This document shows positions 2,413-29,002 of a stretch of DNA of 29,002 nt, one piece after another; position 1 is the stretch's first letter, and the number at the start of each line of letters is the position of its first letter. The notes below the pieces were generated by a model, which did not search any database, was not told the origin of the DNA, and worked only from the letters and a program-made list of their open reading frames with translations. Source of the DNA: Thioalkalivibrio nitratireducens (lineage in GTDB: Bacteria > Pseudomonadota > Gammaproteobacteria > Ectothiorhodospirales > Ectothiorhodospiraceae); assembly GCA_011390385.1 (NCBI GenBank), contig JAABSN010000021.1:1-29002 (forward strand). The letters run 5' to 3'. The translations under genes were made by a program, and so were the position numbers.

Positions 2413-3449
2413 GTTCGTTTCCGGGTGTCTTCCGCGGGCGGTTGCGATGCGGAGCGGTCGCGATGTCGCGGGGCCGCCAGGTCGCGCGCCAGGTGCTCCG
2501 CTGCAAGAAAACTTCCCCATTCGGCGGCGCCGGTGCCCGCGAGGTCCAGCGCCGTACCATGATCCACCGATGTGCGGATGAAGGGCAGTCCGAGTGTGAT
2601 ATTCACCGCTTCACCGAAACCGGCGTATTTCAGGACCGGCAGGCCCTGGTCGTGATACATGGCGAGGACAGCGTCGGCTTCAGACAGGACGCGGGGTGTG
2701 AAGGCCGTATCTGCGGGCAGCGGCCCCTTGAGATCGAGTCCGCGAGCCCTCATGGCCTGCAGTGCAGGGGCGATCACGGTGTCGTCCTCGTGACCGAGCA
2801 CACCCTGTTCGCCCGCATGCGGATTCAGGCCGCACACGGCGATTCGTGGCCGGTCAATGCCGAAATCACGCTGCAGGTCATGAGCCAGGATCGTGATGAC
2901 CTCGGACAGGAGATCCACCGTGATGGCGTCCGCCACGGCACGCAGGGGCAGGTGCGTGGTGGCCAGGGCGACGCGGAGTGTACCGGCAACGAGCATCATG
3001 ACCGGCCGCGGGCTCCCGGCCCGACCGGCCAGCCATTCGGTGTGTCCGGTAAAGGGATATCCGGCCTGGTTGATCACGCCTTTGTGCACGGGTCCGGTGA
3101 CCATGGCATCGAACATGCCATCGAGACAGCCGTCGGCTGCCGTCTCCAGCAATGCCAGAACGTGAGCAGCATTGGCGGGGTTCAGTATTCCAACGTGCAC
3201 GGGAGCCGCGACCGGAACGGGGATGATTTCCAGCGTGCCTGCGGGTGTGGCCTGACGAGGTCCATCGGGGGAAAATTCGGCCAGTCGGACGGTCAGACCC
3301 AACTGGCGTGCCCGCTGCTCGAGAACTTCAGGGCTTCCGACTGCGATGCGCTGGGCACCGGTCGGGTGTTGGGCAAGCTGCAAAAGCAGATCGGGGCCGA
3401 TACCGGCAGGTTCGCCTGCCGTCATGGCAAGGCGGGCGACAGGGCGCAT
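2409..3449 (-). CDS. pdxA: PdxA, 4-hydroxythreonine-4-phosphate dehydrogenase
   Basis: A 346-residue enzyme of the DXP-dependent pyridoxal 5'-phosphate pathway, oxidising 4-phosphohydroxy-L-threonine with NAD(P)+ to a product that decarboxylates to the PdxJ substrate. Metal-ligand histidines fall at the same residue numbers as in E. coli: H166 (TTHLP), H211 (GLNPHAGE) and H266 (MYHDQG). The substrate-binding FTGHTEW (133-139) and the C-terminal SVDHGTALD (294-302) are present. The start at 3449 gives MRPVARLAMTAGEPAGIGPD, the family N-terminus; the frame stays open 43 codons upstream, but that part is not family-like. The end overlaps rsmA. The last about 20 residues form a short non-conserved polar tail. 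Confidence 0.96.
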   Translation of the reverse strand: MRPVARLAMTAGEPAGIGPDLLLQLAQHPTGAQRIAVGSPEVLEQRARQLGLTVRLAEFSPDGPRQATPAGTLEIIPVPVAAPVHVGILNPANAAHVLALLETAADGCLDGMFDAMVTGPVHKGVINQAGYPFTGHTEWLAGRAGSPRPVMMLVAGTLRVALATTHLPLRAVADAITVDLLSEVITILAHDLQRDFGIDRPRIAVCGLNPHAGEQGVLGHEDDTVIAPALQAMRARGLDLKGPLPADTAFTPRVLSEADAVLAMYHDQGLPVLKYAGFGEAVNITLGLPFIRTSVDHGTALDLAGTGAAEWGSFLAAEHLARDLAAPRHRDRSASQPPAEDTRKRT

Positions 3450-3609
3450 TAGTGGACCGTGTGGTAGGTTGGGTAACGACCTGGATCGCTCGGGCACGTC
3501 GTCGCAGGACGGACAAGTGCGGTAAAACCAGGGCGTTTTCCCAGCGTGTCGAGCGCAGTTCCAGCGCATCTGGCGCACCGCACTGGTGACGAACTATCCG
3601 CGTGGTGCA

Positions 3610-5004
3610 TCAGCCACCCAGACCCTCGATACGGTACTCGACGAAGGCCTCGTCGCGTAGCCGCCTGAGCCAGAGCTCCGTTTCTTCCTCGCGTTTGCGG
3701 CTTTGCAGGACTTCCTGGGCGCGGGCGCGCAGGAGATCGCGCGAGGCATCGGTTTCACGTCGCTCGAGCACCTCGATGATGTGCCAGCCGAACTGACTCT
3801 GGATCGGAGCGCTGACTTCGCCAATGGCGAGACTCTGCATGGCCTGCTCAAAGGCCGGGACTGTTTCGCCTGGGCTCAGCCAGCCCAGATCGCCACCGCG
3901 CGAGGCGGAGCCGACGTCATCGGAGTGGGCGCGAGCGAGATCGTCGAACGGAGCGCCTTCTCGGATCCTGTTGTGGAGACTGCGCGCCTGGGCCTCCGCT
4001 TCGGCTTCGGTGCGGATCTGATCGGGGCTGATCAGGATATGCCGCGCACGGGTCTGGGGTATCCTCTGTTCCGCACCAGCCTCGCGTTCAATCAGCTTGA
4101 CGATGTGAAAACCGCTCGGTGATCGCAGGACCTCGCTGACTTCGCCGGGGCGCATCAGGATCGCGGCGCGTGCGTACAGTGTCGGCAATTCGGCCGCACC
4201 GACCCAGCCGAGATCCCCCCCTTCCAGGGCGTTTGGGGCATCGGAGTGGCTGATCGCCAGGCTCGCGAAATCCTCGCCCTCGCGAATGCGTGCATGCAGG
4301 CTTTCGGCCTTGCTCTGGGCCTCGGCAATCGTTGCCGAATCGGCACCTTGCGGGAGTGCGACGAGAATGTGCGCAAGCCGGTAGCGGATGTCGCGGTCGA
4401 TCGCGCCGCTCTCGGCGGCGATCAGTTCATCGATTTCCTGATCCCCGACGCGGAGGCGGTTGTCGACCTGGCGTCTGCGCAACTGAGCGATGGTCAGTTC
4501 ATCCCGAATCTGCTCGCGGAAGGCGGCGAAGTCCACCCCTTCCGCGGCCAGGGCATTTCGGAGCTGGATCAGGGTCAGATCGTTTTCTGCGGCGATGCTC
4601 TCCATGGTTCGGTTCAGTGTGATCTCGTCGATATTGATGCCGACCCGTTCCGCCTCCTGCAACTGCACCCGTTCGACCACCATGCGCTCCATCACCTGCC
4701 GCACCAGTGTGCTCCGGTCCGGCGGCCGGGTGCCACGCTGCGCAAGTTGCTGTTCCGCCAGATTGATGCGCGACACCAGCTCACGCTGGGTAATCACGTC
4801 CTGACCCACGACGGCAACGATCCGGTCCACCAAACGATCGCGTTCCTGGCCTTGCACGGCGCCGCCCGCCGCGAGAAAAAGGGTCAGGGTCAGGGCCAGC
4901 ATGCCGAGCACGCGCGGGAAGCGCTGATCGGATCCGGAATCGCGAGTGGCGGTATTGCGCCGTGGGCGAAGCATCTCCCTAGTCGTAGTTGTCGTATCGG
5001 TCAT
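3610..5004 (-). CDS. surA: SurA, periplasmic chaperone and peptidyl-prolyl isomerase
   Basis: A periplasmic chaperone for outer-membrane proteins, including LptD. The order is: N-terminal extension and hydrophobic signal segment (about 33-47), SurA N-domain from DRLVDRIVAVVGQDVITQRE (57-76), first parvulin domain (about 206-306, with LAHILVAL and GGDLGWVG) and second parvulin domain (about 317-415, with ARHILISP and GGDLGWLS), then a C-terminal helix. Start choice is unsure: the ATG at 5004 overlaps lptD by 26 bases, and a second ATG at 4974 has AGGGAG immediately against it, too close to act as a ribosome site. Either start gives a long n-region for a signal peptide. At 464 residues it is slightly longer than E. 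coli SurA (428). The 160 bases between surA and pdxA show nothing definite. Confidence 0.95.
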   Translation of the reverse strand: MTDTTTTTREMLRPRRNTATRDSGSDQRFPRVLGMLALTLTLFLAAGGAVQGQERDRLVDRIVAVVGQDVITQRELVSRINLAEQQLAQRGTRPPDRSTLVRQVMERMVVERVQLQEAERVGINIDEITLNRTMESIAAENDLTLIQLRNALAAEGVDFAAFREQIRDELTIAQLRRRQVDNRLRVGDQEIDELIAAESGAIDRDIRYRLAHILVALPQGADSATIAEAQSKAESLHARIREGEDFASLAISHSDAPNALEGGDLGWVGAAELPTLYARAAILMRPGEVSEVLRSPSGFHIVKLIEREAGAEQRIPQTRARHILISPDQIRTEAEAEAQARSLHNRIREGAPFDDLARAHSDDVGSASRGGDLGWLSPGETVPAFEQAMQSLAIGEVSAPIQSQFGWHIIEVLERRETDASRDLLRARAQEVLQSRKREEETELWLRRLRDEAFVEYRIEGLGG

Positions 5005-7183
5005 AACCGGAAATTCCCTCGCGTAACAAATCGTCGAGCCCGGTATCGAGGCGGGTCAGGCCGTCGAGGGTCAACTGGAAATAGATGGAATTGTTGTACT
5101 CGCCATCGAAATCGCTCAGGTGTCGACGGAGCGCAACGCGCAGACCATAACAACACGTACGATACTCGAGCCCGGCCAATAGTTCGATATCGCGATCGTC
5201 GCGCAGACTGTAATTCCAACGGCCGATGGCCTGCAGGCGGTCGCTCAGTGGCCAGAAACCGGAGATATCGGTCTGTTCGATCTGGTCCTCGCGCAGCCGG
5301 TAGCCAAGGTTGAGCAGGACCCTGCGCTGTGGGTTGTACGATATTCCCATGGTCGCCAACCGGGCGCGGTCACGGTCTGTGTCGAACAGGACCGATGTGC
5401 GTGCCTGCCAAGCGTCCAGAAATCGAAACCGAGCCTCGGCTGCCAGTTCCGAGCGGTTCTCCCGGCGCGGCGGATCGGTCGGTCGCAACTGAACACGCCG
5501 GTCTTCGAGATAGGTGATTTGTCCGGCGGATACGGAAAGCTGCTCCATGCCTGTTCCCGGATCAATGATGCGACTGGTGAGTGCTGTCGTGATCTGATGG
5601 GTATCGCCCACCCGATCCGCGCCGGTGAATCGTTGTGTGGTGAACAGGCTGTCAAAGCTGAATTCACGTTCACCGGTGTCGAAACGCGGGATGTCGTCCT
5701 GGTCGCGAAATGGGACATACCCGTAGAATACACGGGGCTCGAGGGTCTGCAGGTTGCCGCTGCTGAGCATGCGATCGAAGACGAGGCCGCCATCGATGCT
5801 TAACGTCGGCAAGGTGCGGGAGATGCTGTCGCGCATGCCAGGATCAGTATCGTCGAGTTCGTAGCGCGTATGGCGCAGCGCGAGACGCGGTTCGATGAAA
5901 TAGCCGCCGCCATCGTGGCGATAGCCGATCTCCGGTCTAAAGTCGACACGCATACCGGTCAACGAGTCGGTGCGCTCGAACTGAACCAGTTCCGACCGCA
6001 GATCCCAGAACAGTCCCGAGTTCAGCGATTGCCCGGCCTGAAGCAACAACTGGGGCAGGCGTGTGTATGGAAGATCGTCCGGCGCCAGTGTGGGATCCAG
6101 TGATTCGAAATCCTGGATGCGGCCCGTCAGACGCCAGTTCGGTTGGCCGTACACGAGTTCGGCGCGCCGCTCCACCGCGGGAGTGCTGGAACTGTAGACA
6201 CTGTCGCCGAAATCCCGGAAATAGCTCTGATCCGACACCTCGGTTGCGTCGATTCCAAGCGAAAGGTCGGGGGTGATCTGCGCCTGCTGTTGCCACCGGA
6301 GCAGGTAACGGTCGTCATTGGCTTCGCGGTCATTGGGGAGGATTACAGCGTCAATGGAGCCCTGGATGTTGGGGCGGAGATAGCGCCACTCTGTATCCAG
6401 CATTACGCCGCGCTGCGACATGATGCGCGGGGTTAGTGTGGCATCGTAGTTGGGTGCGATGTTCCAGTACCAGGGGAGCGCGAGATCCAGCCCGCTGCGC
6501 GAACTGTAACCCCCTGTTGGTGTGAGCAGCCCGGATTGCCGACGGTCATCGATGGGAAAGTTGATATAGGGCGTGTAGAAGATCGGGACGTCCTTGAACC
6601 GCAACGTGACATCATTTGCATGGCCGCGACCGCTGTCCCGGTCGAGTCGGACCTGGCCTGCGGAAAGCCACCAGCTGTCATTGCCTTCCGGGCAAGTCGT
6701 GTAACGACCATCGGTCAGGTGGACGCGCCCCGGTCCCTCCTGGGCCGCCTCATCAGCGCTCCCGCGCGCGCTCCGGGATCTCAGCCAGTACTGAATATCG
6801 GAAAAAAGCCCCTTGTCGGCTTCGATCCGATAATTGACTTCCTGGGCCTGGATCAGAAGATCGCCGTCGTACAGGCGCGTTTTTCCGAATGCTTCCACCG
6901 TCTGGGACGAGGTTTCGTAGTCGATCGATTCGGCGTCGAGCCGGCGTCCATCCGCATACAAACTGACGTTGCCCCGGGCGCGCGTGCTCTCGGCGCCAAC
7001 GGTCTCCACGAAGTCGGACTCGATGTCGACCACGCCCGGGGCCAGGGAACGCAGTTCGGGCCAGAACGATTCCGGCGGGCTTGGACAGAACGAGGGGGGC
7101 TCGGCCCGCGCAGGCTGGGCCCCTAGCGCCAGGAACACGAGCGGCAGCGAGGGTAGTATTGATCGTAGCGGCATCGCCTTCAT
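4979..7183 (-). CDS. lptD: LptD, LPS-assembly outer-membrane protein
   Basis: The 734-residue outer-membrane translocon that inserts lipopolysaccharide into the outer leaflet together with the lipoprotein LptE. The sequence shows a signal peptide cleaved after ARA (27), a periplasmic jellyroll domain (about 50-180, e.g. RARGNVSLYADGRRLDAES), then a long aromatic-rich beta barrel. The cysteine pattern needed for the two inter-domain disulfides is preserved: C33, C164 and the adjacent pair C677-C678 (RTCCYGLR). This matches the E. coli arrangement (C31, C173, C724, C725). It is first in the cluster, with its own upstream promoter candidate. Two ATGs (7183 and 7174) are possible starts. Confidence 0.97.
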   Translation of the reverse strand: MKAMPLRSILPSLPLVFLALGAQPARAEPPSFCPSPPESFWPELRSLAPGVVDIESDFVETVGAESTRARGNVSLYADGRRLDAESIDYETSSQTVEAFGKTRLYDGDLLIQAQEVNYRIEADKGLFSDIQYWLRSRSARGSADEAAQEGPGRVHLTDGRYTTCPEGNDSWWLSAGQVRLDRDSGRGHANDVTLRFKDVPIFYTPYINFPIDDRRQSGLLTPTGGYSSRSGLDLALPWYWNIAPNYDATLTPRIMSQRGVMLDTEWRYLRPNIQGSIDAVILPNDREANDDRYLLRWQQQAQITPDLSLGIDATEVSDQSYFRDFGDSVYSSSTPAVERRAELVYGQPNWRLTGRIQDFESLDPTLAPDDLPYTRLPQLLLQAGQSLNSGLFWDLRSELVQFERTDSLTGMRVDFRPEIGYRHDGGGYFIEPRLALRHTRYELDDTDPGMRDSISRTLPTLSIDGGLVFDRMLSSGNLQTLEPRVFYGYVPFRDQDDIPRFDTGEREFSFDSLFTTQRFTGADRVGDTHQITTALTSRIIDPGTGMEQLSVSAGQITYLEDRRVQLRPTDPPRRENRSELAAEARFRFLDAWQARTSVLFDTDRDRARLATMGISYNPQRRVLLNLGYRLREDQIEQTDISGFWPLSDRLQAIGRWNYSLRDDRDIELLAGLEYRTCCYGLRVALRRHLSDFDGEYNNSIYFQLTLDGLTRLDTGLDDLLREGISGYDRYDNYD

Positions 7184-8196: not shown

Positions 8197-10080
8197 ATGT
8201 TGATCGACCGGCAGGACGACCTCCACGAAGAGCGCAGGGACCAGCAACGCTTCTCCGTGCGGGTGCTGGTTGCAGGCTTGATCACGCTTCTGCTTGTCCT
8301 GACGCTCGGTGCGCGCATGTTCAGTCTCCAGGTGGGAGCGCATGCGCACTTCACCACGCTGTCGGAGAACAATCGCTTGCGTATCGAGCCGATCCCGCCG
8401 ACGCGAGGGCTCATTTTCGATCGTAACGGTGTACTGCTGGCCGAGAATCGGCCGGCCTACCAGCTCGAAATCACGGTGGAACAGGTCGACGACCTCGATC
8501 AGTTGCTTCGAAAACTGTCGAGCCTGGTGGAACTCTCACCTGCTGAAATCCAGCGTTTTCGGACCTCGGCACGTCAGCGTCGGCCGTTCCAGCCGGTACT
8601 GCTCAAGGCAAACCTGGATGACGAAGCCGTGGCCCGTATCGCGGTCGCGCGACATGAGTTGCACGGGGTGGAAATCGAAGCACGACCGGTGCGGTATTAT
8701 CCCCACGGTGCGGATTTCGCTCATGCGGTCGGGTACGTGGGCCGTATCAACACCCAGGATTTGCAGCGCCTCGATACCCGGAATTATGCGGGGAGCTCCC
8801 ACACCGGGAAAACCGGGGTGGAGCGCTTTTACGAGGATGTTCTCCATGGGACCACGGGGCACCGCCAGGTGGAAGTGAATGCCCGGGGTCGGGTGATTCA
8901 CGAACTGGCGGTGGTATCGCCGGTACCCGGCCAGGATCTGTATCTGAGCATCGATGTCGGCATGCAGCGCGCGGCGCGTGATGCCCTTGCGCCACATGAT
9001 GGAGCGGTGGTGGCGGTCGACCCGAACACCGGTGAGGTGCTGGCGCTGGTCAGCGCGCCGGGTTTCGATCCCAATCCCTTTGTGAACGGGATTTCGCACC
9101 GGGATTTCGCTACGCTGCAGACGGACCGGCACAAGCCGCTGTTCAACCGGGCGCTGAGTGGGCAGTACCCACCCGGGTCGACGCTCAAGCCGGTGGTAGC
9201 CCTGGCCGGACTGGAAGAAGACGTCACGACGGCCGACCGCCGCATGTTTGCCGCCGGCTACTACCAGCTACCCGGACACGAACGCCGCTATCGTGACTGG
9301 CGGCGCAGCGGACACGGCTGGGTTGACCTGAGCCGAGCGATCGCCGTTTCCGCAGATGTCTATTTCTACGACCTCGGGCACAAGCTCGGCATCGACAGGA
9401 TGTCGCCGATGTTCGATGCTTTCGGCATGGGTAGTCGTGTCGGAATCGATGCCACGGGCGAGCGACCGGGCATCCTCCCCAGCCGGGACTGGAAACGGTC
9501 GGCACAGAATGTAGCCTGGTTTCCGGGGGAAACCCTGATCACCGCAATCGGGCAGGGTTATACGCTGACCACGCCACTTCAGCTTGCGGCCATCACGAGT
9601 ACGCTGGCCAATCGGGGCAAGCGTGTACAGCCTCGCCTGTTGCGTGCGATCCGTGCAGGCAGTGACCTCGAACCCGTGATGCAGCCGGTGCGTTATCTGG
9701 AACCGGTGATCGCGAGCGAAGCGCACTGGGAGGTGATCCATGAGGCCCTTGTCGATGCCGTGCATGAGCGACACGGAACCGCCTGGGGCAGCATCGGCAG
9801 TACCTCACCTCCCTACAGGATCGCGGGCAAGACCGGAACCGCGCAGGTGTTCAGTCTGGCGGACGACGAGGAATACGATGCGGATGCGTTGGACCGCAGA
9901 TTGTGGGATCACGCACTTTTCATCGGTTACGCCCCTGCAGACGCCCCGGAGATCGCGGTCGCCGTACTGGTGGAACATGGCGGTAGCGGTGGACGTGTGG
10001 CCGCACCGATCGCCCGCAAGGTAATGGATTTCCACATGGCTTCGCGCGGTCTGCTGATCAGGGCGGAGGGTAAGCCGTGA
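8197..10080 (+). CDS. mrdA: PBP2, elongation-specific peptidoglycan transpeptidase
   Basis: The 627-residue class B penicillin-binding protein of the elongasome, which cross-links peptidoglycan in the periplasm during lateral growth, paired with RodA. An N-terminal transmembrane helix (about 22-44) is followed by the pedestal domain (with TRGLIFDRNG, about 69-78) and the transpeptidase domain. The catalytic motifs are the nucleophile S328-T-L-K331 (YPPGSTLKP), S385-A-D387 (the SxD variant usual in PBP2) and K545-T-G (AGKTGTAQ). The ribosome site GGAAAGG lies about 10 bases upstream of the ATG. The stop overlaps the GTG start of mrdB. Confidence 0.97.
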   Translation: MLIDRQDDLHEERRDQQRFSVRVLVAGLITLLLVLTLGARMFSLQVGAHAHFTTLSENNRLRIEPIPPTRGLIFDRNGVLLAENRPAYQLEITVEQVDDLDQLLRKLSSLVELSPAEIQRFRTSARQRRPFQPVLLKANLDDEAVARIAVARHELHGVEIEARPVRYYPHGADFAHAVGYVGRINTQDLQRLDTRNYAGSSHTGKTGVERFYEDVLHGTTGHRQVEVNARGRVIHELAVVSPVPGQDLYLSIDVGMQRAARDALAPHDGAVVAVDPNTGEVLALVSAPGFDPNPFVNGISHRDFATLQTDRHKPLFNRALSGQYPPGSTLKPVVALAGLEEDVTTADRRMFAAGYYQLPGHERRYRDWRRSGHGWVDLSRAIAVSADVYFYDLGHKLGIDRMSPMFDAFGMGSRVGIDATGERPGILPSRDWKRSAQNVAWFPGETLITAIGQGYTLTTPLQLAAITSTLANRGKRVQPRLLRAIRAGSDLEPVMQPVRYLEPVIASEAHWEVIHEALVDAVHERHGTAWGSIGSTSPPYRIAGKTGTAQVFSLADDEEYDADALDRRLWDHALFIGYAPADAPEIAVAVLVEHGGSGGRVAAPIARKVMDFHMASRGLLIRAEGKP

Positions 10081-11195
10081 TCAGCGTGACGGGCAGGGAG
10101 CTGGCAACCTCTCAGTGGCTCCTGCGCAGCCTGCGGCTTGATGGGACATTGCTGCTTTTGATCGGCGTCGTTCTGGTTCTCGGACTCATGGTCCTGTTCA
10201 GCGCTGCCGGGGAGGATGTTGCTGCCCTGCAGCGACAGATGCTGCGCATCCTGGTCGGGTTTGCCGCATTGCTGGCTGTGGCGCGGGTTCCGGTATCTGC
10301 GTTGCGGGCATGGTCCCCCTGGCTGTTCCTGCTGAGTGTGGGGCTGTTACTGGCCGTCGTGTTCGCGGGCGACATGGGCAAGGGGGCGCGGCGCTGGCTC
10401 GATTTCGGGTTTATCCGCTTCCAACCCTCCGAGATCATGAAGCTGGCAATGCCCCTGACGCTGGCTTGGTACCTGTCGCTGCGGACCGGTCCCCCCCGGT
10501 TCACCGAACTGACCGTCCTCAGTGTTCTGATCGTCGTCCCGGTCCTTCTGATCATGCGTCAGCCGGACCTTGGCACCGCGCTACTGGTTGCTGCCGCCGG
10601 TCTTCTCGTGGTGTTTCTGGCCGGCCTGGGTTGGCGTTGGTTTCTCGGGATCGGGCTTCTCGTTGGTGCTGCAATCCCCCTGCTCTGGACACAGATGCAT
10701 GACTATCAGCGACAGCGGGTGTTAACGCTGCTGAATCCGGAATCGGACCCGCTGGGCGCCGGCTACCACATCATCCAGTCGAAGATCGCGATCGGATCGG
10801 GGGGGCTGTACGGAAAGGGGTGGCTCAATGGGACTCAGTCACAACTGCAGTTTTTGCCCGAACGTTCGACCGACTTCGTTTTTGCCGTGTACGCCGAGGA
10901 ATTCGGATTTGTCGGCGTTGCAGCGCTTCTGGTGCTCTACTTTCTGATCGTCGCGCGTGGGCTCTGGATCGCCACGCTGGCTCAGGATCGGTTTTCGCGG
11001 CTGATTGCCGGTAGCATCAGCCTGACCTTTGCGGTGTACGTGGTCGTCAATATCGGCATGGTCAGCGGGTTGCTTCCGGTTGTCGGCATTCCGCTACCGC
11101 TGGTCAGCTACGGAGGGACGTCTCTGGTGACGCTGATGGTGGGGTTCGGTATTCTGATGGCTGTTCATTCCCAACAGCGACTGGTGAATCGATGA
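10077..11195 (+). CDS. mrdB: RodA, SEDS-family peptidoglycan glycosyltransferase
   Basis: A 372-residue polytopic inner-membrane protein of the SEDS family that polymerises lipid II glycan strands for rod-shape elongation, working with PBP2. Many hydrophobic segments are visible, with the family motifs RRWLDF (105-110), QPSEIMK (116-122), RQPDLGTA (161-168) and the periplasmic-loop motif PERSTDFVFAV (261-271), whose D266 corresponds to the essential RodA aspartate. The start is GTG at 10077 inside a GTGA overlap with the mrdA stop, preceded by GGAGGG 6 bases upstream, so translation is coupled. The stop overlaps the mltB ATG. Confidence 0.97.
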   Translation: MISVTGRELATSQWLLRSLRLDGTLLLLIGVVLVLGLMVLFSAAGEDVAALQRQMLRILVGFAALLAVARVPVSALRAWSPWLFLLSVGLLLAVVFAGDMGKGARRWLDFGFIRFQPSEIMKLAMPLTLAWYLSLRTGPPRFTELTVLSVLIVVPVLLIMRQPDLGTALLVAAAGLLVVFLAGLGWRWFLGIGLLVGAAIPLLWTQMHDYQRQRVLTLLNPESDPLGAGYHIIQSKIAIGSGGLYGKGWLNGTQSQLQFLPERSTDFVFAVYAEEFGFVGVAALLVLYFLIVARGLWIATLAQDRFSRLIAGSISLTFAVYVVVNIGMVSGLLPVVGIPLPLVSYGGTSLVTLMVGFGILMAVHSQQRLVNR

Positions 11196-12232
11196 CTGCA
11201 ATCCATGATTGGACCCGGCCGGGCGCCATTTTTCTGCGGCTGTTCGCGAACGCGGCACTGATCACGGTTCTGGGCGCTTGCACTCTGCCGGGGGTTGCGG
11301 TTTCACAATCGGAATTCCGCGCCGGCGATCCGCCTTACCTGGAACGCCCGGAGGTGCAGTCGTTCATCGACGAGCAAGTCGCCAAGGGTCTGGACGGCGA
11401 CGTGCTCGCGGCGCTCTTTTCGGGCGTCGAGCCTCAGCAGCGGATTCTCGACCTGATCTCCAGTCCGGCGGAGGCCAGGCCCTGGAAGGATTACCGGCCG
11501 ATTTTCGTCAACGACCTGAGGATCGAAAGGGGCAGGGAGTTCCAGAGTGAGCAAGCCGCGTGGCTTGAACGCGCGGAAGAGGCCTTCGGTGTCGATCAGG
11601 CGTTGATTGCAGCCATCATCGGCGTCGAGACCAACTATGGCCGGAACCTCGGGAGTTTTCGGGTCTTCGACGCCCTGGTGACGCTCGGGTTCGACTATCC
11701 GCCACGTCAGGCATTCTTCCGGAGTGAACTGGAGCATTTCCTGCAACTGGTTCAGGAAGAAGCGCTCGATGCCCGTGAAACACGGGGGTCCTATGCCGGC
11801 GCAATGGGTCGTGGCCAGTTCATTGCGTCGAGTTATCGGGCTTACGCCGTGGACTTCGACGAGGATGGGCGGCGCGATCTGATCGATTCCTGGGCGGATG
11901 CGATCGGCAGCGTGGCCAATTATTTCCGCCAGCACGGCTGGCAGACGGGCGGGCCCGTGGTGGTGCCCGCCCGCGTCGAGGGTAACGGCCATGAGACGCT
12001 GCTCGGCGGAGGCTACCAGGCACGCTTCACGCTGGAGGAATTGGCGGAGCACGGTGTTCATCCGGCGGAAAACGTCGCCGAAGATGGTTACTTTTCCCTG
12101 ATCCGTCTGGATGGCAGTGGCGGACCCGAGTTCTATCTCGGATATCCGAATTTCTATGTCATCACACGCTACAATCGGAGTCCCCTGTACGCGATGGCGG
12201 TTCATGAGTTGACGGAGGCCCTGCGACAGTAG
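11192..12232 (+). CDS. mltB: MltB-type membrane-bound lytic transglycosylase
   Basis: A 346-residue family-3 lytic transglycosylase (Slt35/MltB) that cuts glycan strands, leaving 1,6-anhydromuramyl ends. An N-terminal signal ends in a lipobox-like LGAC (C30), suggesting an outer-membrane lipoprotein. The catalytic glutamate is E146 in IIGVETNYG. The MGRGQFIASSYRAYAVDF segment (205-222) and an EF-hand-like DFDEDGRRDL (221-230), the calcium site typical of Slt35, are present. The ATG overlaps the mrdB stop (ATGA), so it belongs to the mrdA-mrdB transcript. The length is close to the family norm. Confidence 0.95.
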   Translation: MTAIHDWTRPGAIFLRLFANAALITVLGACTLPGVAVSQSEFRAGDPPYLERPEVQSFIDEQVAKGLDGDVLAALFSGVEPQQRILDLISSPAEARPWKDYRPIFVNDLRIERGREFQSEQAAWLERAEEAFGVDQALIAAIIGVETNYGRNLGSFRVFDALVTLGFDYPPRQAFFRSELEHFLQLVQEEALDARETRGSYAGAMGRGQFIASSYRAYAVDFDEDGRRDLIDSWADAIGSVANYFRQHGWQTGGPVVVPARVEGNGHETLLGGGYQARFTLEELAEHGVHPAENVAEDGYFSLIRLDGSGGPEFYLGYPNFYVITRYNRSPLYAMAVHELTEALRQ

Positions 12233-12251
12233 AAGGGTGAAAGGTCCAGTC

Positions 12252-12361
12252 CGTAGGGTGCCGTGAGGCGAAGCCGAACCGCACCGACACCGGTTCGGCC
12301 TTGGTCCCCAAGCCCCCCGTGGCTCAGCGGTGCAAGTCGCTGCGCTCATTGGCACCCTACG
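12252..12361 (+). repeat. Unequal-armed inverted-repeat element, copy 1
   Basis: A 110-base element filling much of the gap between mltB and rlpA. Its left arm (12252-12285; cgtagggtgccgtgaggcga...) and right arm (12329-12361; inverse of cgtagggtgccaatgagcgc...) share the terminal CGTAGGGTGCC but diverge inside. The same two arms occur in swapped order at 18573-18671, so the unit is a dispersed miniature element present in both orientations. The central about 43 bases are not shared with copy 2. The remainder of the gap (12362-12485) shows a poor TTGTGC...TGTATG promoter-like pair and nothing else convincing. Confidence 0.8.
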
Positions 12362-12485
12362 CCAGCATTGTGCATGCTTCTGGTGGTATATGTATGGGAC
12401 CATGGGAGTGAGCGTGAAGCCACCCAGCGCGACGAGCAGGGACGCCCTGGGGGCGCGAAAATCTGTAGACGAGCAGGTGATCCGG

Positions 12486-13376
12486 ATGGCCAGAGGACGT
12501 CGAAGCAGTCGTCGATTTGCCGCGGCTGTACCCCTGAGGATCGGGTTGCCTGTGTGCCTGTTTGCCCTGCTGGTTGCTGGCTGTGGTGGGACCCCGGACC
12601 GATCCCGGCAGGCCGATGGTCATCCCGTTTCGATCCCGGTGGACCTCGCCTCGATACCGGACGCGGTGCCCAGAGACGAACCCCTGAGCCGCTACGGTAA
12701 CCCTCCGGAGTACGAGGTGTTCGGGCAGCGCTACCGAACGCTGGTTTCCAGCGAGGGGTTCGAACAGCGTGGAATTGCTTCCTGGTACGGTACCCGATTT
12801 CATGGTCGACGCACCTCCAGCGGTGAGCCGTATGACATGTTTGCAATGACCGCTGCCCATCGACAGTTACCCCTCCCCAGCTATGTTGAAGTCGTCAATC
12901 TCGAGAACGGCAAGCGCGTCGTGGTGCGGGTCAACGATCGCGGCCCTTTTGTTGGTGGCCGCGTGATCGACCTCTCCTACGCTGCCGCGCATCGCATCGG
13001 GATGCTCGAACGGGGTGTCGCACCCGTGCTGGTCCGGGCGCTCGGTCGTGACGACATCGGGTCCGCCACGCTCCAGTCTGCCGACGCCAATACCGTGGAC
13101 GGCCCGAATCATCCGGTGTCCTCTGGCGAGGCCAACGGCAATTCCCGCTTCATTCAGATTGGCGCGTTTGGCAGTCACGATGCCGCAAAAAGGGTGCAGC
13201 AGGACTTGAACGATCTCGGGTTTTCCGGGGTAACCATCACCATGATGGCGTCGGATGGCGGGGCGCGGCTGCACCGAGTACGGATCGGCCCGCTTGAGCA
13301 CCCCTCGACCGTTCGCGAGGTGGAAATGCGGTTGCAGCGGGCAGCCGTCGACGATTACCGGTTGGTAACAGAGTGA
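12486..13376 (+). CDS. rlpA: RlpA, septal-ring lytic transglycosylase lipoprotein
   Basis: A 296-residue lipoprotein with lipobox LVAGC (C33), a double-psi beta-barrel domain (about 96-185: GIASWYGTRFHGRRTSSGE...TAAHRQLP...VRVNDRGPF) and a C-terminal SPOR domain (about 219-295, RFIQIGAFGS...). In Pseudomonas RlpA cleaves glycan strands lacking stem peptides; the residues E114, H125 and D151 lie in the conserved catalytic groove motifs. The SPOR domain directs binding to denuded glycan at division sites. Start: the frame is open back into the repeat element, but the ATG at 12486 gives a normal Arg-rich signal peptide; GTG at 12477 is an alternative. AGCAGG about 10 bases upstream is a modest ribosome site. 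Confidence 0.94.
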   Translation: MARGRRSSRRFAAAVPLRIGLPVCLFALLVAGCGGTPDRSRQADGHPVSIPVDLASIPDAVPRDEPLSRYGNPPEYEVFGQRYRTLVSSEGFEQRGIASWYGTRFHGRRTSSGEPYDMFAMTAAHRQLPLPSYVEVVNLENGKRVVVRVNDRGPFVGGRVIDLSYAAAHRIGMLERGVAPVLVRALGRDDIGSATLQSADANTVDGPNHPVSSGEANGNSRFIQIGAFGSHDAAKRVQQDLNDLGFSGVTITMMASDGGARLHRVRIGPLEHPSTVREVEMRLQRAAVDDYRLVTE

Positions 13377-13457
13377 TGATTACCGGTCGGGGACGGAATA
13401 ATGTGCGCTGATCTCTGATATCGTTTGCATCGCCGAACTGTTCAGGTTGATCGTCCC

Positions 13458-14690
13458 ATGAAGAAACTGTTTTTGCTGCTTTCCGGCGCCTTGTCTCTGG
13501 CGCTGTTGCAATTCCCGTTCGTGCAGGCCCAGACACTGCCGGTACCCGGTGCCCCGGGTTCTGCTGTATTGTCGGTGATCCCGCAACCGCCTTCCGACAT
13601 CACGGCCAAGAGCTACATCCTGGTCGATTTCGATTCAGGGCTGCCGCTCGCGGCTCGGGATCCGGACGTGCAACGCGAGCCGGCAAGCCTGACCAAGCTG
13701 ATGACGGCGTACATGATCTTTCGTGAGATCCACGCCGGAAGGATCAGCCTGGACGACGAGGTCACGATCAGTGAAAGGGCCTGGCGCACCGGGATGGATG
13801 GCGCATCGCGCATGTTCATCGAGGTAGGCAACCAGGTCCGGGTCGAGGATCTGCTCCGAGGCATGATCGTGCAATCGGGGAACGATGCTTCGACTGCGCT
13901 GGCGGAGTTGGTGGGAGGCTCCGAGGGTGCCTTCGTCGACCTGATGAATGCCCAGGCCCGAGCCCTGGGCATGCACGATTCCTACTTCACCAATCCTCAC
14001 GGGTTGCCGAGCGAGGAAGCGCAGTACACGACCCCGGCGGACATGGCGCGGCTCGCGCGCGCGCTGATTCGGGACTTTCCCGATCTCTACGGCTATTACA
14101 GTGAAAAATCGTTCCGTTATAACGATATCAATCAATCCAACCGCAACATCCTGCTTTGGCGGGACGAGAGCTTCGATGGCCTGAAGACGGGTTGGACGTC
14201 GGCAGCCGGTTACAATCTGGTTTCCTCGGCCGAGCGAAACGACCGGCGTCTGATTGCCGTGGTCATGGGAATCGATGCACCCGACCACCAGCGTGGGGGT
14301 GTGATCCGGGCCAACGAATCCCAGGCCCTGATCAATTGGGGAATGCGTTTCTTCGACTCACGCAAGCTCTTCGAGGGAGGCACCGTCCTGGCCGAGCCTC
14401 GCGTCTACAAGGGAGCGGAGACCAAGGTACAGGCCGGACTCCCCGATCCGTTCTGGGTCGTGTATCGGCAGGGGCAGGGGGATCGACTGGAGGCGAGCAT
14501 GGAACTGTTTGATCCGCTGGTGGCGCCCATCGACGAGGGTGACACCGTGGGGGAGGTCGTGGTGACGCTTCAGGGTGAGACGCTGGTGCGGCAGCCTCTG
14601 GTGGCAATGGAGACCATCGAATCCGGCGGGGTCATCCGCCGCGCGTGGGACAGTGCTGCCCTGACGCTGCGCGCAGCCTGGCCATTCTGA
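13458..14690 (+). CDS. dacA: D-alanyl-D-alanine carboxypeptidase (PBP5/6 family)
   Basis: A 410-residue low-molecular-weight penicillin-binding protein that removes the terminal D-Ala from pentapeptides in the periplasm. A signal peptide (MKKLFLLLSGALSLAL..., cleaved after about A24) is followed by the S11 peptidase domain with S77-L-T-K80 (PASLTKLM), S140-G-N142 (VQSGNDAS) and K243-T-G (LKTGWTS). A PBP5_C beta-rich domain follows (about 295-385), then a C-terminal amphipathic membrane anchor (IRRAWDSAALTLRAAWPF). The ATG at 13458 is chosen for the signal peptide; the frame is open 11 codons upstream. It is 6 bases from the next gene, whose product also handles D-amino acids. Confidence 0.96.
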   Translation: MKKLFLLLSGALSLALLQFPFVQAQTLPVPGAPGSAVLSVIPQPPSDITAKSYILVDFDSGLPLAARDPDVQREPASLTKLMTAYMIFREIHAGRISLDDEVTISERAWRTGMDGASRMFIEVGNQVRVEDLLRGMIVQSGNDASTALAELVGGSEGAFVDLMNAQARALGMHDSYFTNPHGLPSEEAQYTTPADMARLARALIRDFPDLYGYYSEKSFRYNDINQSNRNILLWRDESFDGLKTGWTSAAGYNLVSSAERNDRRLIAVVMGIDAPDHQRGGVIRANESQALINWGMRFFDSRKLFEGGTVLAEPRVYKGAETKVQAGLPDPFWVVYRQGQGDRLEASMELFDPLVAPIDEGDTVGEVVVTLQGETLVRQPLVAMETIESGGVIRRAWDSAALTLRAAWPF

Positions 14691-14696
14691 CCGAAA

Positions 14697-15572
14697 ATGA
14701 TCGTCTACCTGAACGGCAGGTACATGCCACTGGAGCAAGCCTGCATTTCGCCCCTGGATCGGGGCTTTCTGTTTGCTGACGGGGTGTACGAAGTCATTCC
14801 GAGCTATGGTGGCGTCCCGTTCCTGCTGGACGCCCACCTCGACCGTCTGGGCCGGTCGCTCGCGGCGATCCGCCTTGCCGATCCGTTGCCTGGTCCGCTA
14901 TGGCGACAAATGCTGGAGCGTCTCCTGGTCGAAAATCCGGGTGGTGATCGGTCGATTTATGTACAGGTGACCCGGGGCACGGCTCCGCGCGACCATGCCT
15001 TTCCCGCAGGGACTCCAGCGACCGTCTTCGCGACGGTCAGTCCGATCGCGCAACCCGGACCCGCATTGGCTGAAACGGGAGTCGCGGTGGTGACCATGCA
15101 GGATCAGCGTTGGGGTCGTTGCGACATCAAATCGGTGGCATTGCTGGCGAACGTACTGGCCCGGCAACGGGCGGTCGATGAAAATGCAGTCGAGGCAATA
15201 CTGCTGCGCGACGGTCTTCTGACCGAGGGCGCCGCGAGCAATGTCTTTGTGGTCAGGAATGGTGTGGTGTCGACCCCGCCCGTGACTTCGGCGATACTGC
15301 CAGGGATCACCCGTGCGTTCCTGCTGGACCTGCTTCGGGCCGGGGGGCGAGTCTGCCACGAGGAACCTGTTCCGGAGGCCGCTTTACGTGCGGCAGACGA
15401 GATCTGGCTGACCAGCTCGACCAGGGAAGTGCTTCCGGTCACGCGGATCGATGGACAAGCGGTCGGTGATGGCCACCCAGGCACCATGTGGCGCGAAGCA
15501 CGGGCTCTTTACCGGAAGGCCCGGTTCGAACTTCACGGTGGAGTCGGCACGGAGAGCATCGATGAACAATGA
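14697..15572 (+). CDS. dat: D-amino acid (D-alanine) transaminase
   Basis: A 291-residue fold-type IV PLP aminotransferase. D-alanine transaminase moves the amino group between D-Ala/2-oxoglutarate and D-Glu/pyruvate. The N-terminus YLNGRYMPLEQACISPLDRG (4-23) and GFLFADGVYEV (23-33) are typical. K145 in CDIKSVALLAN is the PLP Schiff-base lysine and E177 in LLTEGAASNVF binds the pyridine nitrogen. The family also includes branched-chain aminotransferases and 4-amino-4-deoxychorismate lyase; FADGVYEV and the length favour the D-amino acid branch, although substrate cannot be proved by reading. It sits between dacA and ybeD with an 11-base overlap into ybeD. Confidence 0.88.
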   Translation: MIVYLNGRYMPLEQACISPLDRGFLFADGVYEVIPSYGGVPFLLDAHLDRLGRSLAAIRLADPLPGPLWRQMLERLLVENPGGDRSIYVQVTRGTAPRDHAFPAGTPATVFATVSPIAQPGPALAETGVAVVTMQDQRWGRCDIKSVALLANVLARQRAVDENAVEAILLRDGLLTEGAASNVFVVRNGVVSTPPVTSAILPGITRAFLLDLLRAGGRVCHEEPVPEAALRAADEIWLTSSTREVLPVTRIDGQAVGDGHPGTMWREARALYRKARFELHGGVGTESIDEQ

Positions 15573-25654: not shown

Positions 25655-27214
25655 TCAAGCATCTGAATGGCTTTCGAGCAATCCGTGTCGGTCCAGAAGG
25701 TGCAGCAACTCGACAAGCCTTTGCTCGATCTTTTCGCGTGCGGTGCTGGGCGATCCCCCGCCACCTGGCAGCAGGCCCAGGCCTCGCTCCGTCGCGGCCA
25801 CGGAAAGCATGGCTTCGACGATCTCCCGATGATTCCGGTCGCCGTCGAGCATCGATAGCAGACGCACGGAGATTGGATCCAGTTGCAATGTCTGGTGCCG
25901 GATTGTTGGTATCCGATGTTCTCCTTGTGCGGCCAGCCCCCGGGCCAGCCCCGATGCCCGGGGTCCGGTTCCGGGCGCGGATTGCATATCGCGGCCGGGC
26001 GTGGGTGCACAGAGCGTGGCGTGTACCCCACCGGAAACCAACAGGCTGAACAGCTGCTGCGGAAGCGCCGAGTCCTCCGCAGAGCTGGCTGACACCTTCC
26101 TCTCGGCGCATTCCTCGCGGACTTCCTGCAACACGTCGGCAAGCATGCGGGCCGTCGGAAACGCCTGTGTCAGGCGGGCGACCACCGCCCGGAGTAGATG
26201 GCTATCCAGATGAAAGTGCTGGCCGGTAGCGGAGCGGTAGCGGCCCTCCGCGTCCGGCGCCAGATCGCTGTAAAGGGGCAGGGACAGCAATCCATCGAGG
26301 TCAATCTCGCGCGTCAGATGATCGGCGCTGCGGCAAAGAAGCGACTGGCGAAACGGCCGCAGGCGCAGGAAGTCCGCGTACTGCTCTTCTTCGATCAGTT
26401 CGTCGAAGCGCGCCAGACTTGATTCCGCCGCGGCACCGAGGGTCGAAGGGAACAGCGTGTGTAGCTGTGCGTCGGCAAGATATTGCAGGCCGTGGGTACC
26501 GGCTCGTGCCACGAAATCAGTGAACAGCAGCGAGTCGTTCGTGTCCTCGAGATACTCGTGGTAAAGGTAGCTGTCACGCGCATCGCGAAGGCGGCTCAAC
26601 TCGCCGCTCAGCCAGTCATGGCCCGGCGGTTCGGACTCCAGCGGAGTCGAGAGGAAGTCGATCATCTCGCGCGCAGCCGCAAGCCGCTCTTTGGGGCGAG
26701 TGTACCCGCGCGCGTGGTGCAGCAGCATGTCGCGCAGCATGCTCCGCTGGCGGCCGCCGGGCAGGGTGTTGTAGCTGATGTAGGCGATGCCACCGGGCGC
26801 CAGTCTCGATGCGCAGACACTGAGGATGTGTTCCTGCACCTCAGGGGGGACCCAGGAGAACAGGCCATGCGCGATGATGTAGTCGAATGATTCGCCCTCT
26901 GGTTCGAAGGACTGCAGGTCCTGGTGCCTGATCTCGACATTCGCAAGCCCCAGACTGTCGGCGAGGGTTGCGCCACGCTCGGCCTGGACCCGGGACAACT
27001 CCAGCCCGACACAGCGGGTATTCGGCAGGTTCCAGGCGATGGGCAGGAGGTTGCCCCCTGAAGCACAGCCCAGTTCCAGCACCCGGGCGCGTGCCGGATC
27101 ACGGCAGGGAAGCCCGAACAGCCGTCCGATCACCGCAAGACGGTCCGGGTGAGTCTCGGTAATCGGAAAGCTCTCGTAGGGGATCTCGTCGTAGCCGGAA
27201 AGTGTTTCGCTCAT
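25655..27214 (-). CDS. PKMT-type SAM methyltransferase with regulatory domain
   Basis: A 519-residue class I SAM methyltransferase: VLELGCASGGNLLPIAW (45-61, motif I), GLELSRVQAERG (70-81), HQDLQSF (97-103), then HGLFSWVPPEVQEHIL (116-131). A middle methyltransferase regulatory domain follows (about 220-340: YLYHEYLEDTNDSLLFTDFV). A C-terminal winged-helix-like part (about 430-515: LDPISVRLLSMLDGDRNHREIVEAML) completes the layout of rickettsial protein-lysine methyltransferases that modify OmpB. That layout, and the neighbouring outer-membrane barrel gene, suggest but do not prove a protein substrate. The ATG at 27214 gives MSETLSGYDEIPYESFP, the usual N-terminus; a TTG 19 codons earlier is in frame. 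No good ribosome site precedes either. Confidence 0.85.
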   Translation of the reverse strand: MSETLSGYDEIPYESFPITETHPDRLAVIGRLFGLPCRDPARARVLELGCASGGNLLPIAWNLPNTRCVGLELSRVQAERGATLADSLGLANVEIRHQDLQSFEPEGESFDYIIAHGLFSWVPPEVQEHILSVCASRLAPGGIAYISYNTLPGGRQRSMLRDMLLHHARGYTRPKERLAAAREMIDFLSTPLESEPPGHDWLSGELSRLRDARDSYLYHEYLEDTNDSLLFTDFVARAGTHGLQYLADAQLHTLFPSTLGAAAESSLARFDELIEEEQYADFLRLRPFRQSLLCRSADHLTREIDLDGLLSLPLYSDLAPDAEGRYRSATGQHFHLDSHLLRAVVARLTQAFPTARMLADVLQEVREECAERKVSASSAEDSALPQQLFSLLVSGGVHATLCAPTPGRDMQSAPGTGPRASGLARGLAAQGEHRIPTIRHQTLQLDPISVRLLSMLDGDRNHREIVEAMLSVAATERGLGLLPGGGGSPSTAREKIEQRLVELLHLLDRHGLLESHSDA

Positions 27215-27328
27215 CGCGCGCGCTGGTTTTCGTGAACCAGGGAGTTTCCACGAAAGCGTGGGTTTGAACAAACGCGCAATGTCTCAATCTGGCAGTGCAT
27301 TCAGTGGCTACAGGTGGTGAGAGCAGAT

Positions 27329-27372: not shown

Positions 27373-28035
27373 TTAGAAGCTGATGCTGTAGCCGACCACG
27401 AAGAGGGGATCCAGCTCGCTTTCGTCGGTCTGTGCATAGGTCAGGGAGATGTCCCCGTAGTCGGTCGACTTGGTCAGGCCGAGGCTCCAGAACGTCCAGG
27501 TGGTGCTGTCTGGTTCCAGATCGGTGTAACCGAGTTCGGCGTTGAGGCTGACGCTGGGCATCACTTCGAAGTCACCCCCGAGCTTGTAGATCATGCTGCC
27601 CTCGAAGTCACTGTCCTCTGCATTCAGCGCGTACTGGACGCTGGCATAGAACGGGCCGTAACCGACACTGCCGTAGACATCGCCGTAGTCGAAATCCTCC
27701 AGTGCGGGATAATAGTAGTAGACATAACCGAGGTCGAAGTCGAGGCCGCCGGCCTCGAATGCGTAACCGCCATAGAGGTCGACTTCCTGACCCTGGCCGT
27801 CGCCGAGCGTCGAAACCCAGGTCCCCAGATAGAAGCCGGATTCGTGACCATAGTCGATACCGCCCTGGACGACGGCGTTGTTGTCGGAGGCAGTGGTGCC
27901 CCAGAGGATATAATCGCTGTATATGCCGGCGTTGAACTCGAGTTCTGCCTGGGCGGTGCTGAGGCCTGCGGTGCCGATGAGCACGGCGCCGGTGACGGCA
28001 GAGCTGACCAGGGTCTTCTTGAGAGAGCGATGCAT
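27373..28035 (-). CDS. TorF family putative porin (Gcw_chp outer-membrane protein)
   Basis: A 220-residue protein: signal peptide cleaved after AQA (about 30), then a small beta barrel rich in Tyr, Gly and Asp. The mature start AELEFNAGIYSDYILWGTTA and the VQGGIDYGHESGFYLGTWVS stretch match the family called TorF putative porin (TIGR02001/Gcw_chp). The last residue is Phe (SISF), the usual outer-membrane C-terminal signature recognised by BamA. The acidic surface may suit a saline habitat (inference). The ATG at 28035 has AAGGAG 7 bases upstream, the strongest ribosome site in the window. A terminator-like hairpin follows, so it is probably transcribed alone. Confidence 0.9.
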   Translation of the reverse strand: MHRSLKKTLVSSAVTGAVLIGTAGLSTAQAELEFNAGIYSDYILWGTTASDNNAVVQGGIDYGHESGFYLGTWVSTLGDGQGQEVDLYGGYAFEAGGLDFDLGYVYYYYPALEDFDYGDVYGSVGYGPFYASVQYALNAEDSDFEGSMIYKLGGDFEVMPSVSLNAELGYTDLEPDSTTWTFWSLGLTKSTDYGDISLTYAQTDESELDPLFVVGYSISF

Positions 28036-28052
28036 GGTTGTTCTCCTTCGTT

Positions 28053-28065
28053 CATGTTTTACATG
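28053..28065. repeat. Small inverted repeat in the TorF-like leader
   Basis: CATGT-TTT-ACATG, a 5+5 dyad just upstream of the AAGGAG ribosome site of the TorF-like gene. As RNA it could form a small hairpin next to the ribosome site. It is short, so chance is possible. Confidence 0.4.
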
Positions 28066-28098
28066 GGGTGATCGGGATCGAATCACTGCAAAGCGAAG

Positions 28099-28116
28099 AA
28101 GCATCGATCGTGCCAA
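28099..28116 (-). promoter_or_regulatory. Candidate sigma-54 (-24/-12) promoter for the TorF-like gene
   Basis: Minus strand TTGGCACG-ATCG-ATGCTT. The -24 half (TGGCACG) is perfect, the GG-to-GC distance is the required 12 bases, and the -12 half has one mismatch (ATGC for TTGC). A start near 28088 would give a leader of about 50 bases. A 6+6 dyad, ACTGTC-GGT-GACAGT, lies directly upstream at 28116-28130. Confidence 0.45.
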
Positions 28117-28284
28117 CTGTCGGTGACAGTGGTTTGTTGCATTTGTGTTGCTTCCTGTTGCGTTCTCATCAGCTCATGCGCTCAGACAGGGCGCCTTGGC
28201 GGTGCAGGTTGCACGGAGATGGTGCACGGCCGCACCCGACGCCATATCTTTCACGTGCCCGCTGTCGCGTAGATGCAACGTTGC
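28116..28284. promoter_or_regulatory. Cluster of palindromes between the TorF-like and nuclease genes
   Basis: The gap of about 350 bases holds several dyads: ACTGTC-GGT-GACAGT (28116-28130), GTGCA-GGT-TGCAC (28202-28214), GTGCAC (28222-28227) and GCAACGTTGC (28275-28284). They are possible operators for divergent transcription. Apart from the sigma-54 candidate I see no convincing promoter, and no gene, in the gap. Confidence 0.35.
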
Positions 28285-28387: not shown

Positions 28388-28501
28388 GTGAAGGATTCTC
28401 AGGGGCAGTTCCGGGAACGGGTCTGGAATGCGTCGGCGCCTGTCTGTCCGCTGACCGGCGCCGGACCTTGGTGCGGCGTGTTTCCGAGCAGCGAACCATG
28501 A
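28388..28501 (+). CDS. 37-residue leader ORF coupled to the ATP-cone/nuclease gene
   Basis: A GTG-initiated ORF beginning VKDSQGQFRERVWNAS and ending VFPSSEP. GGAGGAG at 28375-28381 lies 6 bases before the GTG, a strong ribosome site, while the following gene's own ATG has only a weak one. Its TGA overlaps that ATG as ATGA (28498-28501). I recognise no domain. It may be a true small protein or a leader that brings ribosomes to the nuclease start. Confidence 0.5.
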   Translation: MKDSQGQFRERVWNASAPVCPLTGAGPWCGVFPSSEP

Positions 28502-29002
28502 CCGCGCGTCGTCACGGGGCTTTCGCTCAACCCCGCATCACGGTGCGCAAGAGCGACGGTCAGCGGGAGCCTTATTCGCCGAAGAAGCTGCGCGCCTCGC
28601 TGCATCGCGCTGGTGCCAGCGATGCAGTCGCGAGCGATGTGATCGCCGAGCTCGAACCCAGGCTCCGCGACGGGATCAGCACGGGGAAGCTGTATCGCCT
28701 GGCCCGCAGTGCGCTCAAGAAGCGCTCACGGCGCACAGCGATCACCTACAGCCTCAAACGTGCCCTGTTGGACATGGGGCCGAGTGGTTTCCCCTTCGAA
28801 CAGTTCTGTGGCCGCCTGTTCGAGGCCATGGGCTACACGGTGACCTACAACCGTTTTCTGCAGGGCCGATGCGTGCAACACGAGATCGACATCATCGCCG
28901 AGCGCGATGGCCGGCGTCTGTTTGCGGAATGCAAGTTCCACAATCGCGCAACCTACCGCAATGATGTGAAAATCCCATTGTACCTGCGCGCTCGCTCGTT
29001 CG
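28498..29002 (+). CDS. ATP-cone / Mrr-type PD-(D/E)XK nuclease fusion (partial, 3' end missing)
   Basis: The frame is open from ATG 28498 to the right edge (168 residues seen). Residues about 13-90 look like an ATP-cone: RITVRKSDGQREPYSPKKLR, followed by helical segments up to KRALLDMGP. ATP-cones bind ATP/dATP and are best known as allosteric sites of ribonucleotide reductase and in NrdR. Residues about 100-168 look like an Mrr-type endonuclease core: FEQFCGRLFEAMGYTVTYNR, then H128-E-I-D131 and FAECKFH with E144 and K146, the D...ExK triad of PD-(D/E)XK enzymes. A restriction or DNA-sensing role is inferred. GTG 28471 is an alternative start. Confidence 0.8.
   Translation, partial: MTARRHGAFAQPRITVRKSDGQREPYSPKKLRASLHRAGASDAVASDVIAELEPRLRDGISTGKLYRLARSALKKRSRRTAITYSLKRALLDMGPSGFPFEQFCGRLFEAMGYTVTYNRFLQGRCVQHEIDIIAERDGRRLFAECKFHNRATYRNDVKIPLYLRARSF

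Follow-up and report, generated by a model that had tools for sequence, protein, structure and literature searches.

The gene at the right edge of the window

The stretch of DNA analysed here (the window, 29,002 nucleotides) is positions 1 to 29,002 of contig JAABSN010000021.1 from Thioalkalivibrio nitratireducens (GCA_011390385.1), and its right edge cuts a gene for a nuclease that begins with an ATP-cone (Table 1). ATP-cones are the switches of ribonucleotide reductase and of its repressor NrdR. The visible product comprises 168 residues (MTARRHGAF...YLRARSF). A second in-frame ATG lies upstream at 28273; the start at 28498 is preferred because P0003, the closest among the relatives listed (98% identical over the visible part), begins at the same methionine. 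P0003 is 290 amino acids long, full-length relatives measure about 260-294 amino acids, and the close relatives that bear a name are from Thioalkalivibrio.

The edge gene encodes a nuclease of AF1548 type, in which an ATP-cone at the N terminus precedes a PD-(D/E)XK catalytic domain, and a small domain of helices closes the chain at the C terminus. A preliminary description of this DNA, made from the letters alone, had read an ATP-cone joined to an Mrr-type nuclease at the right edge; both profiles (PF03477 and PF04471) score above their Pfam cut-offs, and the residues that it had singled out, D131, E144, and K146, stand at these positions with these identities. An AF1548-like C-terminal domain follows the nuclease domain in relatives, in a region that lies past the window edge for the present gene. 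The AlphaFold model built for P0003 (71-row alignment; mean pLDDT, the model's own confidence score, 86) predicts an ATP-cone-like N-terminal part, a PD-(D/E)XK core, and, towards the C terminus, a helical part. In a fold search with the nuclease, 2vld and EndoMS score the same within error as Card1, Cdn1, and Can2, among the matches listed.

Table 1 Positions of the edge gene, its domains and conserved codons, and two upstream neighbours in the window
Feature	Position	Strand	Remarks
ATP-cone/PD-(D/E)XK nuclease gene, 5' part	28498..29002	+	Open reading frame from ATG 28498, 168 codons, no stop before window end
ATP-cone domain, residues 15-77	28540..28728	+	PF03477, E 3.1e-9, 37.7 bits (cut-off 25.8)
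Codon K18 of ATP-cone	28549-28551	+	Kept in 227/230
Codon K30 of ATP-cone	28585-28587	+	Kept in 226/230
Mrr_cat / PD-(D/E)XK core, residues 96-157	28783..28968	+	PF04471, E 8.8e-6, 26.3 bits (cut-off 21); fold matches agree
Codon E101, acidic residue, first helix of nuclease core	28798..28800	+	Invariant, 230/230
Codon D131, predicted catalytic	28888..28890	+	Invariant, 230/230
Codons E144-C145-K146, predicted catalytic ExK	28927..28935	+	E144 and K146 invariant, 230/230
Gcw_chp-family gene, divergent upstream neighbour (context)	27373..28116	-	Pfam; same family upstream of nuclease in L003 and L005
PKMT-type methyltransferase gene (context)	25655..27271	-	Pfam; likewise upstream in L005

Conserved residues

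Conservation was scored in an alignment of 230 relatives of at least 255 amino acids out of 240 listed, the 10 shorter ones being dropped. E101 and E129 are invariant in 230/230, as are D131, E144, and K146. The preliminary description had named a missing profile match, or a triad not conserved among homologues, as grounds for giving up its assignment; both profiles match and the triad is unchanged throughout.

Judged by spacing, most of the predicted nucleotide contacts of the ATP-cone appear to be retained. The residues of NrdR that contact nucleotide or are needed for binding are V48, K50, R51, E56, and K62, according to an excerpt of PMC9110341 (ATP-cones are treated as well in PMC11226230 and PMC5794259, likewise excerpts). 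Equal-spacing counterparts of these contacts are V/I16 (228/230), K18 (227/230), and K30 (226/230); at the counterpart of R51, most sequences of the bacterial set have A or S. With an ATP-cone fused to an Mrr_cat nuclease that is itself intact, gating by nucleotides is the natural suggestion, and to this extent the preliminary description stands.

A beta-CASP RNase as partner

The nuclease gene is tightly linked to a gene for a CPSF73/TTHA0252-type beta-CASP RNase in several phyla. The downstream RNase was mapped by tblastn, open reading frames in GC-rich loci were called by codon-position GC, and Bacteroidota were counted as one locus per genome. The RNase gene lies directly 3' of the nuclease gene and on the same strand in 9/9 Thioalkalivibrio-type loci (L001-L007, L036, L037), including L002 (a metagenome-assembled genome labelled Lysobacteraceae), where the nuclease alignment ends at residue 265, and L007, where the contig ends within the nuclease. 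The same arrangement is found in 2/2 Bacteriovoracaceae-type loci (L021, L022), 2/2 plasmids (L088, L089), and 30 of 48 Bacteroidota loci (30/49 if the centre genome G007, locus L020, which is outside the 48 and is without an adjacent RNase, is included). The two genes are joined by an ATGA overlap in L001, L003, L005, and L036.

Two partners that were scanned carry Lactamase_B, Beta-Casp, and RMMBL domains, and the HxHxDH motif is present in 8/8 partners checked. The best solved relative of the partner is Thermus TTHA0252 (E 4.6e-82, near full-length), followed by type VII Cas14 and by aCPSF1/CPSF73-like proteins; for Cas14 and aCPSF1 the partner scores below the NCBIfam cut-offs. In log phase, disruption of TTHA0252, an RNA-degrading enzyme, shifts the levels of 207 genes, as stated in an excerpt of PMC4229858.

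Upstream of the nuclease in L005, genes for a Gcw_chp protein, a PKMT methyltransferase, and BrkB match the left-hand genes of the window itself; this makes it very probable that the window holds the same locus, with an RNase gene expected to begin just beyond the edge at 29002. Elsewhere in the window, translations from 575-7183 and 8197-15572 resemble core chromosomal clusters, which we take to be of the ksgA-pdxA-surA-lptD type and the mrdA-rodA-mltB-rlpA-dacA type, respectively.

AF1548 and the distribution of the family

Members of this AF1548-like family occur in archaea as well as in bacteria. A database search with the edge protein returned 255 relatives, of which 120 were listed; 71 of these 120 make up the alignment (A1) used below. 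The AF1548 chain (PDB 1Y88, unknown function) matches the family profile from the nuclease domain onward only and gives no ATP-cone match, its extent being that of the nuclease and C-terminal domains. A search with the 175-residue 1Y88 segment gave 980 matches, the best of which, P0123 (265 amino acids), is 99% identical to the segment and has all three domains, ATP-cone, Mrr_cat, and AF1548-like_C. PF03477 is present in 114 of 120 listed among the 980 (counted by eye), and those listed include Archaeoglobaceae, Aenigmarchaeota, and Hadesarchaea. Since P0123 and these 114 relatives carry PF03477, the crystallised AF1548 protein appears, from sequence comparison, to be start-truncated and without its regulatory ATP-cone.

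In the Thioalkalivibrio family, A1 matched 8/47 genomes, three of them already known from an earlier contig scan and one (G040) cut. Matches in the Bacteroidota sample number 50/296 genomes, with the centre genome included and G256 a weak fragment; one genome of this group, G250, has three copies of the ATP-cone nuclease, and the copy at L079 sits in a longer operon. The Patescibacteria sample gave 51/192, composed of 15 near-full matches (centre included) and 36 short ones, mostly cone-only, and the Pseudomonadota sample 10/398, of which one is full-length (the centre genome) and nine are weak and partial. The phylum names of these samples are our own reading of their centre loci. Among plasmids the nuclease is found in 2/72,556 records. 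It matched 0/50,697 phage records, and among the viral contigs of IMG/VR no stretch encoding a relative was found.

Salvage, respiration, and glucan genes nearby

On both plasmids (L088, L089), the next genes encode a metallo-beta-lactamase (MBL)-fold hydrolase, a thymidine-phosphorylase-family protein, and a phosphoribosyl pyrophosphate (PRPP) synthetase. Thymidine/AMP-phosphorylase and PRPP synthetase genes occur in four loci in all (L068, L079, L088, L089); the L068 phosphorylase exceeds the cut-offs of PRK04350 and TIGR02645 but not that of AMP phosphorylase, and the L079 PRPP synthetase exceeds that of PRK07199. A phosphorylase search over 24 genomes matched four, two of them weakly at 28-29% identity. 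A complete salvage operon was rejected as the rule, being confined to these four loci. The plasmid of Criblamydia (L089) has in addition a phosphoketolase, an alpha-glucan phosphorylase, and an acetate-kinase-family gene, with a glucoamylase gene on the other strand; at a distance of 8-10 kb there are a terminase gene and a toxin-antitoxin pair annotated as AbiEii/AbiEi.

Among plasmids with the RNase and no nuclease, four of 225 were looked at: three have phosphorylase and PRPP synthetase genes, and one has an arginine-deiminase cluster. In the three (L159, L160, L162; Alphaproteobacteria), the RNase, phosphorylase, and PRPP synthetase genes are near genes for respiration, nitric-oxide stress, or P-type ATPases, and two of the three carry a gene annotated as xylulose 5-phosphate 3-epimerase. 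In the fourth (L161, a Paraburkholderia plasmid), the RNase gene precedes the arginine-deiminase cluster, near an F0F1 ATP synthase operon.

Respiratory genes stand on the opposite strand after the RNase gene in L003 (hemN, fixH, ccoP, ccoO, ccoN), and ccoG was found by scan in L001. The near genes, 120 in number and at most three positions from the nuclease in 20 of the 48 Bacteroidota loci, were assigned to 91 Pfam families, the commonest 25 of which include Beta-Casp, RMMBL, and Lactamase_B, 10; Usp, 9; SHOCT, 7; E1-E2 ATPase and Cytochrome_CBB3, 4 each.

A second ATP-cone follows about 340-365 bases past the nuclease in three Bacteroidota genomes (G203, G302, G338). A gene joining an ATP-cone to a glucoamylase-family domain (PF10091) is found beside the nuclease in L069 (10717-12252), L070 (10751-12286), and L156. 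In the L069 protein the glucoamylase-family domain matches with E 4.9e-86, and the cone, at 24.7, stays under its cut-off of 25.8; among 120 homologues listed, the cone is present in 9 of the 10 closest (P0243-P0252) and in 0/110 others. Proteins similar to the fusion are named from Fodinibius. The fusion may represent a single event because the gene orders of L069 and L070 are nearly identical. Its position next to the nuclease is compatible with control of polymer breakdown by ATP. Matches of GAM at about 190-206 are the nuclease's own ATP-cone cross-matching, and the Bacteroidota scan was made with the glycosidase part only; PF22357 was dropped as a search family, since it matched nowhere, controls included, and is uninformative.

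Proposed function and alternatives

The best reading, to which we give a probability of about 0.5, is that of a nuclease gated by ATP and serving the turnover of nucleic acids when energy or oxygen is limiting. The ATP-cone would sense the cellular level of ATP (or dATP) and switch the nuclease, probably through altered pairing of cones, by analogy with ribonucleotide reductase and NrdR. Nuclease and beta-CASP RNase would jointly degrade the cell's nucleic acids, with RNA the likeliest substrate, during shortage of energy or oxygen, which would let nucleotides be recycled; in loci that have them, phosphorylase and PRPP synthetase would use what is released. That the nuclease is active at low ATP is our guess. 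In Bradyrhizobium diazoefficiens, genes for an MBL-fold protein (bll3115), a PRPP kinase (bll3116), and a phosphorylase-family protein (bll3117) are induced in microoxia, as given in an excerpt of PMC6515984.

Several observations weigh against turnover under energy or oxygen limitation. The RNase is not adjacent in 24 other loci (8/8 of Yonathbacteria type, 11/11 other Patescibacteria, and 5/5 further loci, L009 and L017-L020) and is not next door in 18 of the 48 Bacteroidota loci; 15 of those 18 genomes show no such RNase genome-wide at E 1e-30. The RNase family occurs in 225 plasmid records versus two for the nuclease. An obligatory two-gene module of nuclease and RNase was rejected, as the nuclease is often without an adjacent RNase. 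The fold is equally close to DNA enzymes (2vld, EndoMS) and to Card1/Can2/Cdn1, and we know of no biochemistry for an ATP-cone nuclease. E24, the counterpart of NrdR E56, is kept in 42/118 rows of bacterial type versus 111/112 of AF1548 type, a loss on the bacterial side. No phosphorylase was found in 5/5 genomes of the Thioalkalivibrio family, and the salvage step therefore need not apply to the window. In the excerpt of PMC6515984, bll3115, bll3116, and bll3117 are not marked as targets of NifA or FixK2; their likeness to the genes described here is one of annotated family. Upstream of the nuclease in the window and eight relatives, the best FNR/FixK boxes have 2-3 mismatches, like those in shuffled sequences; control of FNR/FixK type through such a box was dropped for this reason.

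A broader form of the same idea, which we hold as tentative and rather doubtful, takes the ATP-cone to be a portable energy-charge switch on depolymerases, by which cells starved of oxygen or energy would consume their own RNA and glucan under the gate of ATP. The cone would then act both on the nuclease, which would turn nucleic acid into nucleotides, and on the glucoamylase-type glycosidase, which would turn glucan into sugar, and the genes nearby for RNase, phosphorolysis, PRPP, phosphoketolase, and cbb3 would form one programme.

The main rival is a nuclease of DNA repair or mismatch cleavage, of the NucS/EndoMS kind, in which the ATP-cone would read dATP/ATP and tie cutting to the deoxynucleotide pool; in that case, common regulation under stress would be all that links it to the RNase. 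We consider it unlikely: the nucleases Card1, Cdn1, and Can2 do as well as EndoMS in the fold search, the recurrent partner is an RNase of CPSF73 type, and no repair family is found among the commonest 25 Pfam families of the near genes.

That nuclease and beta-CASP RNase instead form an ATP-tuned pair for mRNA decay or termination, acting on RNA 3' ends and transcripts for regulation and not for salvage, seems to us quite improbable. The partner is of the CPSF73/aCPSF1 kind, and the shift of 207 genes upon disruption of TTHA0252 would fit such a role; salvage and glucan genes in four longer operons, the context of stress and respiration, and the frequent occurrence of the nuclease without the RNase speak against it.

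The preliminary description had further proposed a restriction-type nuclease triggered by shifts of nucleotide pools during phage infection. Neighbouring genes were compared with PADLOC at a threshold of 1e-10, using as controls 110 of 116 genes from the same Bacteroidota loci that lie five to seven positions from the nuclease (six edge or very long genes were omitted). Only 1/120 near genes matched, to the GlgB model, versus 13 PADLOC families among the 110 control genes (families being counted, not genes), and no defence-gene neighbourhood was found in the 20 of 48 Bacteroidota loci scanned. For the nuclease itself, PADLOC gives a single weak match (PDC-S02, E 4.7e-4). Although this match, the Mrr_cat core, the patchy distribution, the fold resemblance to CRISPR ancillary nucleases, and the AbiEii/AbiEi genes about 8 kb off in L089 point toward phage infection, the proposal is very unlikely and was rejected as the leading idea, given the lack of relatives in phage records and IMG/VR, the rarity on plasmids, and the PADLOC results for neighbours, which are metabolic and respiratory.

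Comparison with known systems

The architecture of ATP-cone and nuclease is already in databases: the NCBI family named 'ATP cone domain-containing protein' / 'restriction endonuclease' has the same length and domains as the edge family, with a name only, and 'Restriction endonuclease/ATP cone domain' appears as the title of one record. Among the open-licence literature searched, no paper recognisable as describing the ATP-cone nuclease family was found; such proteins may be mentioned in the article on ATP-cones by Aravind, Wolf and Koonin (2000).

Type IV restriction enzymes of the Mrr kind are defined by an N-terminal Mrr domain. They share with the edge protein an Mrr_cat domain above the Pfam cut-off, but the edge family has an ATP-cone in the N-terminal place, and no defence context was found for it; the N-terminal Mrr domain is present in 0/10 full-length relatives, which have the ATP-cone instead (one below cut-off). 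NucS/EndoMS and Card1/Can2/Cdn1 likewise differ in their N-terminal domains, the sensor of Card1/Can2 being a CARF domain. Compared with the ATP-cones of ribonucleotide reductase and NrdR, the present cone is attached to a nuclease, and the arginine of the inner site, and in bacteria the glutamate, are mostly lost. The partner matches TTHA0252-type beta-CASP RNases near full-length and differs in being often coupled to an ATP-cone nuclease.

If an ATP-cone governs a nuclease whose active site is conserved, nucleotide status would be tied directly to nucleic-acid breakdown. The family also offers a lead on a crystal structure of 2004 described as of 'unknown function', which was apparently solved without the regulatory domain. 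If the gated consumption of both RNA and glucan holds true, ATP-cone allostery would extend beyond ribonucleotide reduction, in archaea and bacteria alike.
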